DNA of 64,000 bases, taken from the NCBI RefSeq assembly GCF_030052815.1, contig NC_079503.1, positions 56,276,735 through 56,340,734 of the forward strand, in the 5' to 3' direction. The notes beneath the pieces were generated by a model. The model was not told where the DNA came from. It did no database searches and saw only the letters and a list, made by a program, of their open reading frames with translations. Within the stretch, counting starts at the first letter, position 1. Every line of letters starts with the position of its first letter. A program made the position numbers and the translations under genes. The DNA is from Hevea brasiliensis (lineage: Eukaryota; Streptophyta; Magnoliopsida; Malpighiales; Euphorbiaceae). Shown piece by piece: positions 7,055 through 7,128 of this stretch.

Positions 7055-7128
7055 CTGACATATATTTCACGTTATTATTATCATTTATATTCAATATTTG
7101 TATTAGTTCAATTGTTTCAATTGTTTAC
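7055..7128 (-). other. 74-nt GT-AG intron in element D integrase
   Basis: On the minus strand the coding text breaks after ATC CAG with GTAAACAATTG and resumes after ATATATGTCAG. It is AT-rich, close to the minimum plant intron size, contains ACTAAT as a branch-point candidate and has an in-frame TGA four codons in. Element B has exactly this segment missing at 55701/55702. The A intron sits at the same codon boundary and shares the block ATGATAATAAT, so the two are homologous. Confidence 0.8.

Follow-up and report, generated by a model that had tools for sequence, protein, structure and literature searches.

Since retroelements replicate through an RNA stage, they would be expected to rid themselves of introns. 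We examined an intron-like segment in the integrase region of long terminal repeat (LTR) retrotransposons of the rubber tree, Hevea brasiliensis, starting from a stretch of 64,000 nucleotides (contig NC_079503.1 of assembly GCF_030052815.1, positions 56,276,735 to 56,340,734; hereafter the window, with positions counted from its first base). The window holds three copies, called A, B and D here, of which A and D carry the segment and B lacks it. They resemble Ty3/gypsy elements with a chromodomain, a kind that also includes CRR. Plant LTR elements named as having introns or spliced RNAs are Ogre, CRR, Bagy-2 (for env), BARE1 and EVADE (passages of PMC6317226, PMC12786077 and PMC3735527).

Ogre is likewise a plant gypsy element with an intron within its polyprotein region, and removal of this intron from some of the transcripts gives the whole polyprotein (PMC6317226). 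The Ogre region, however, averages 274 bp and lies between two open reading frames (PMC6317226), whereas the Hevea intron is 74–91 nt long, lies in the integrase catalytic core of an element of a probably different lineage and would gate the integrase end only. BARE1 and EVADE, which are Ty1/copia elements, share with the Hevea copies the presence of introns in a plant element, in their case alternative introns in a single open reading frame (PMC3735527; PMC12786077), but their splicing yields a Gag-only message while in Hevea the full product would depend on splicing. BARE in barley was shown to have distinct pools of RNA for translation and for packaging (PMC3735527), and this provides a precedent for the separate pools in the mechanism proposed below. 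Attempts to amplify DNA copies of the spliced BARE RNA from barley DNA did not succeed (PMC3735527), whereas 8 of 100 sampled Hevea copies are intronless. CRR, a centromeric element, is likewise a gypsy element with a spliced RNA, but in CRR splicing removes rt and creates two open reading frames, and is not at the integrase (PMC3735527). The closest analogue of how the Hevea intron may work is found in the third intron (IVS3) of the Drosophila P element, where retention truncates the transposition enzyme and splicing completes it (PMC7776569), although the P element is a DNA transposon with an unrelated protein and its tissue control involves known silencer proteins (PMC7776569).

Intron-bearing plant LTR retrotransposons are therefore already known, and what appears to be new is the intron at this integrase position. 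No intron at this position was found in searches of open-licence papers for introns in integrase, and passages of a survey of Hevea transposable elements (PMC7353026) contain no mention of one. From its anatomy, its presence across the family, its recurrent exact loss and the selection on the exon behind it, all of which were observed directly, we conclude that the segment is very probably a spliceosomal intron in pol that was gained before the A-type and D-type copies split and has been lost repeatedly, when spliced RNA was reverse transcribed.

Anatomy of the probable intron

In element D, the segment occupies positions 7055–7128 on the minus strand and is 74 nt long with a GC content of 20%, beginning GTAAAC and ending GTCAG. 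The upstream exon ends TAATCCAG, the segment begins GTAAACAATT and ends TATATGTCAG, and the downstream exon resumes with GTCCTTGA. The insertion point is in phase 0, after the fourth residue past the catalytic Glu of TDGQSE, and reading on into the segment gives Val-Asn-Asn-stop, the fourth codon being an in-frame TGA. Element A, also on the minus strand, has 91 nt at the same codon, running from 14203 to 14193 and then from 3325 to 3246 as it is split by an inserted element. Its exon ends TGATTCAG and resumes with GTATTGGA; the 5′ piece of the intron (14193–14203) is GTAACCCTTAG and the 3′ piece (3246–3325) ends GATATGATAG. In element B, on the plus strand, TAATCCAG is followed directly by GTCCTTGA at 55701/55702 (CAG/GTC, with the catalytic Glu codon at 55687–55689), and a single open frame at 54616–56406 runs uninterrupted through RNase H, integrase and the chromodomain region. 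The coordinates and lengths of the D and A segments, their shared codon boundary and their GTAA and AG ends were all as reported in an earlier note on this DNA, as was the exact intronless junction in B. Over the internal pieces of D and B that were compared, with 2,679 and 2,068 aligned sites, no insertion or deletion longer than 15 nt was present apart from the 74 nt. The intron lies in the integrase, and an Ogre-type intron between protease and reverse transcriptase was not found among the differences of this size between these pieces.

The earlier note had also pointed to ACTAAT as a motif common to the introns, but this motif is not conserved across the 39 D-type copies examined. Column conservation over the same copies makes TAATAAC, with a candidate branch-point A at position 7072 (minus strand), 18 nt before the 3′ splice site, the better candidate for the branch site. 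The D intron is bounded on both sides by CAGGT (7127–7131 and 7053–7057), an arrangement like that of a proto-splice site with a 5 bp target duplication. By analogy with introners (PMC9860276), the intron may perhaps have originated from a short insertion bringing its own AG/GT.

The part of D pol upstream of the intron (7129–9050, minus strand) covers RNase H, the integrase zinc finger and the catalytic core as far as TDGQSERVIQ, with the catalytic Glu codon at 7141–7143. Exon 2 (6347–7054, minus strand, lower limit approximate) holds the rest of the integrase core, the SH3-like C-terminal domain and the chromodomain region. These limits came from alignment to B, from which the domains and the Glu were also taken. 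As all of the parts in exon 2 lie beyond the stop, no complete integrase can be made from an unspliced message. B aligns to the Ty3 polyprotein of the solved structure 7q5b through HPQTDGQSER, its integrase has D(35)E spacing as counted by eye, and it has matches over the cut-off to the Pfam families RT_RNaseH, Integrase_H2C2 and SH3_Tf2-1, while the match to Chromo (E 0.00058) fell short of the curated cut-off. The RNase H preceding the integrase, the D(35)E integrase and the C-terminal chromodomain (with a Chromo match below cut-off) place the element among the Ty3/gypsy chromodomain elements. A Tekay-type assignment is plausible, and fits with Del/Tekay being the dominant gypsy group of Hevea in the survey passages (PMC7353026).

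Presence and absence across the genome

The junctions were counted by pattern across the whole Hevea assembly (1.88 Gb, 755 contigs). The one gene checked in this assembly, for a lycopene-cyclase-like protein, matches P3X46_009833 of Hevea brasiliensis at 100% identity, in keeping with rubber tree or a very close relative, while matK was present only as short or broken pieces. The intron-type 5′ junction with GTAA was found at 6,133 places and the exact intronless junction, searched with a degenerate pattern, at 498; reversed-pattern controls for both gave 0. These patterns are not of equal length, and the one for the intronless junction picks up further families as well. Among the first 100 places matching it, 90 had a D-type exon, three were A-type, four C-type and three E-type, while the first 100 GTAA places consisted of 96 D-type and four A-type. 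The first 30 loci in the GTAA list were read and all had exon 2 some 74–91 nt further on. In total, 43 of 43 GTAA loci read (39 D-type, four A-type) carried the intron followed by exon 2, and the 3′ AG was present in 36 of the 39 D-type and all four A-type introns.

The exact D-type exon 1 end followed by G occurs 6,279 times in the genome, and in 407 cases the sequence is the exact 30-base intronless junction. A fairer sample was formed by the first 100 of these 6,279 places, which all lie on one contig between 2.5 and 46 Mb. GTAA followed in 88, which were scored by the 5′ junction alone, six had the exact intronless junction and six had neither. When these last six were read, four proved to be introns with a mutated 5′ site (GC in two) and two were precise intronless junctions with changes further downstream in exon 2. 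The sample therefore contained 92 intron-bearing and eight intronless copies, and no imprecise loss in 100, though it requires an intact exon 1 end and G so that losses reaching into exon 1 would be invisible. GT-AG ends are kept across copies, with conservation of the 5′ end judged on this sample as GTAA is itself the search pattern. Removal restores the frame exactly (498 junctions with the degenerate pattern, 407 of D-type, and an open frame in B). As about 92 of the 100 carry the segment at the same codon, most copies do not lack it, and the possibility raised in the earlier note that A and D had acquired independent insertions in a largely intronless family did not hold. Two of the loci, L097 and L099, have a common GC in place of GT at the 5′ site together with other shared changes, and are possibly a GC-AG sublineage or a duplication.

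Recurrent loss

Intronless copies were scattered among intron-bearing ones in both the A-type and the D-type. A tree of exon 1 from 79 copies required 21 changes of state, at least six of them forced by well-supported branches, and a tree of exon 2 from 85 copies also required 21, at least three of them forced. When loss was treated as irreversible, there were 25 all-intronless clades in the exon 1 tree and 26 in the exon 2 tree, most of them single copies and many on weak branches. A topology placing 35 D-type intronless copies in a single clade was rejected (log-likelihood lower by 356 units; p 2e-35), and a single clade of 35 intron-bearing copies was likewise rejected (p 3e-6).

The copies in the trees are not a random sample, being mostly the first-listed places on a few contigs and enriched for intronless copies. 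Nine copies with short coverage were dropped from the exon 1 tree and three E-type copies from the exon 2 tree. L078 and L080, in which exon 2 matched inexactly, and L001, a duplicate of the window D copy, were dropped from both trees and from the selection analysis below. One intronless pair, L026 and L027, lies 8 kb apart with the two as sister rows at 100 in the exon 1 tree, and looks like a local duplication.

Selection on the exon behind the intron

Ratios of non-synonymous to synonymous divergence (dN/dS) were calculated by the Nei-Gojobori method for pairs of copies, which are not independent. In intron-bearing copies the median for exon 2 was 0.083 between A-type and D-type and 0.156 within D-type, and the corresponding values for exon 1 were 0.072 and 0.238. 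The protein part downstream of the intron is thus under purifying selection in copies that carry the intron. In intronless copies the exon 2 value was 0.163, and constraint is equally strong in the two states. Exon 2 is constrained although it lies behind an in-frame stop, and for this reason the 74–91 nt segment is most likely spliced from the message. The interior of the intron changes at a rate of 0.096, which falls between four-fold sites (0.127 and 0.148) and second codon positions (0.061 and 0.043). Stop codons were frequent in copies of either state. Exon 1 was free of stops in 13 of 38 D-type intron-bearing copies and 15 of 36 intronless copies, and exon 2 in 16 of 38 and 23 of 36, respectively.

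Dating by LTR divergence was tried for eight copies and succeeded for three, the other five giving no LTR match at the guessed place. The divergence was 0.020 in the intron-bearing copy L064 and 0.028 and 0.026 in the intronless copies L017 and L035. As the value for B is 0.019, the insertion of at least one intron-bearing copy is about as recent as that of B.

Probable shared ancestry of the A and D introns and occurrence in other families

The exons of A-type and D-type copies differ by about 25%, with a corrected synonymous divergence of about 1.4 to 2. In a local alignment of the A and D introns from the window, 43 of 2000 shuffles reached the score; a collinear global alignment gave 20 of 5000, and 2 of 5000 for an A-type/D-type pair chosen among the loci (L077 and L049). 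With the ends removed, three other A/D pairs gave 37 to 162 of 2000. The claim in the earlier note that the two segments are homologous thus stands on the shared codon position, which is the stronger argument, while the evidence from the intron sequences is modest, and weak once the ends are removed. A block common to the A (3246–3325) and D (7055–7128) introns, AATGATAATAATRACNTGA, is present despite near-saturated synonymous sites and may function in splicing or as a branch element. The history would be simplest with a single gain of the intron before the A/D split.

In family C, the exon 1 end followed by GTAA was found at no place in the genome, and all four C-type loci read had no intron. 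The three E-type loci read also had none, but these were found via the intronless pattern and intron-bearing E-type copies are possible. A-type copies were too decayed to serve as a protein query. Public proteins were compared using 121 sequences, 120 listed of 8,000 scored and the B copy of the window. Of these, 66 read through the intron position, 53 had no visible motif (due to an earlier end, a change or too strict a pattern) and two differed after the motif. Named species among the matches listed include Gossypium, Xanthoceras and Tanacetum. The closest public protein (91%, from a JGI contig), the only listed match above 75% identity, is one of the two that differ after the motif, and ends TDGQSERVIQVNN, the product of reading through into the intron. 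Seven related public proteins (P0017, P0033, P0050, P0052, P0070, P0086 and P0104) end just before the Gln at the intron position; these ends could reflect decay of CAG to TAG in methylated copies rather than introns. Among 120 listed matches to exon 2, 30 have their start at the first Met of exon 2 or close to it, including family members at 94% and 93%, and 32 were unclassified. Such starts fit an upstream stop but are not diagnostic, as other species show the same start. No relatives of the element were found in viral contigs.

Alternative explanations

Several observations weigh against an intron that is spliced and repeatedly lost. Three of the 39 D-type introns read have no 3′ AG, and four of the 92 sampled introns depart from GTAA, three of them from GT; decay of splice sites is expected in dead copies, though it is no evidence for splicing. 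With the ends set aside, homology between the A and D introns is weak (343 of 2000 shuffles for local alignment of the window pair). The trees are poorly resolved, with 32 of 76 inner branches open for exon 1 and 48 of 82 for exon 2, and the intron label is somewhat clustered, with only 6–17 of 500 shuffles as low in the exon 1 tree and 0–1 of 500 in the exon 2 tree. There are also small all-intronless groups of up to four rows, so intronless copies may replicate. The argument from selection would be weakened if they provided integrase in trans, as is possible in principle. In one alternative, the intronless state is a single old lineage that exists alongside a defective intron-bearing one and complements it in trans. 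The slight clustering on both trees would suit such a history, as would the lack of an intron in families C and E and the many listed protein relatives that run through the position. We consider it very unlikely and the least probable of the alternatives, as the single clade of D-type intronless copies was rejected (p 2e-35), intronless copies are found in both the A-type and the D-type, and exon 2 of the intron lineage should have relaxed if intronless copies had served all the others, whereas constraint is alike (0.156 and 0.163).

A further possibility is that the segment is an insertion that was never spliced, and that slippage or template switching between the flanking 5 bp repeats generated the intronless copies. 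The repeat is real (CAGGT on both sides in D, AGGT in A), and slippage cannot be told from loss via spliced RNA by the sequence of the junction alone. However, over 116.8 kb of exon reference length from 73 D-type copies, of which 111.8 kb were aligned by projection, there were four deletions and four insertions of at least 20 nt, with no deletion of 60–100 nt and no two deletions of at least 20 nt at the same location, despite the presence of 61 pairs of five-base repeats 60–100 nt apart in the same exon parts of B. The intron site, in contrast, is empty in eight of 100 sampled copies. Slippage also leaves a constrained exon 2 behind an in-frame stop unexplained; it was rejected as the main route and is very unlikely. 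Somewhat less improbable, but still unlikely, is the spread of the intronless state by gene conversion and not by fresh reverse transcription of spliced RNA. High copy number and the nested, clustered arrangement of copies make conversion possible, and the L026/L027 pair would be consistent with a local event. The first intronless copy would still require a spliced RNA or a deletion, losses are found in two families with exons about 25% different, and the numbers of all-intronless clades are similar for the two exons (25 and 26), though many branches are weak. Loss through a spliced RNA, as the earlier note had expected from the exact absence in B, is the route we infer, and is supported by the recurrence of the losses, the exactness of those sampled and the constraint on exon 2.

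A possible role for the intron

The host of the segment is a high-copy Ty3/gypsy chromodomain family of the rubber tree, and the segment is very probably an AT-rich, phase 0 GT-AG intron of that family. Unspliced RNA would direct synthesis of Gag, protease, reverse transcriptase and RNase H, with a Gag-Pol that ends right after the catalytic Glu and has neither the rest of the integrase core nor the C-terminal domain and chromodomain. Spliced RNA would be the mRNA for full-length integrase. The packaged genomic RNA would mostly retain the intron, such that most new copies are intron-bearing, while a minority of spliced RNA would be packaged, reverse transcribed and inserted to produce precisely intronless copies such as B.

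More speculatively, retention of the intron may act as a gate separating genomic RNA from integrase mRNA. It is conceivable, though we hold this only tentatively, that the intron is maintained as a splice gate for integrase, held by selection on the element, and that intronless copies are mostly dead ends. By our own reasoning, loss is irreversible and has affected about eight in 100 copies, but the intron is still there long after the A/D split, at which synonymous sites are near saturation, and this would imply selection for the intron or against intronless lineages. Thousands of copies keep the intron in the catalytic core of the integrase, and the precise intronless copies would record how often spliced RNA was reverse transcribed and inserted. 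They would thus provide a natural count by which the packaging of spliced versus unspliced RNA could be gauged, and make it possible to test how and why a plant retrotransposon retains an intron.

Arrangement of the elements in the window

Element D (3331–14192, minus strand) has LTRs at about 3331–6280 and 11122–14192 with a Kimura two-parameter (K2P) divergence of 0.056. It is flanked on both sides by the target duplication CTAAG (3326–3330 and 14193–14197) and was therefore inserted into the intron of A, landing inside the 91 nt a few bases from the 5′ splice site (3326–14197). Element B (38415–59565, plus strand) has LTRs at 38415–41509 and 56470–59565 and a target duplication of AGTGC (38410–38414 and 59566–59570). 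Its K2P divergence of 0.019, compared with 0.056, makes it younger than D. A second LTR element with LTR-like ends that are 96% identical is nested in B at 43608–53786. Elsewhere in the window, two stretches of 7 kb (18781–25717 and 26726–33697) are inverted with respect to one another and 90% identical.
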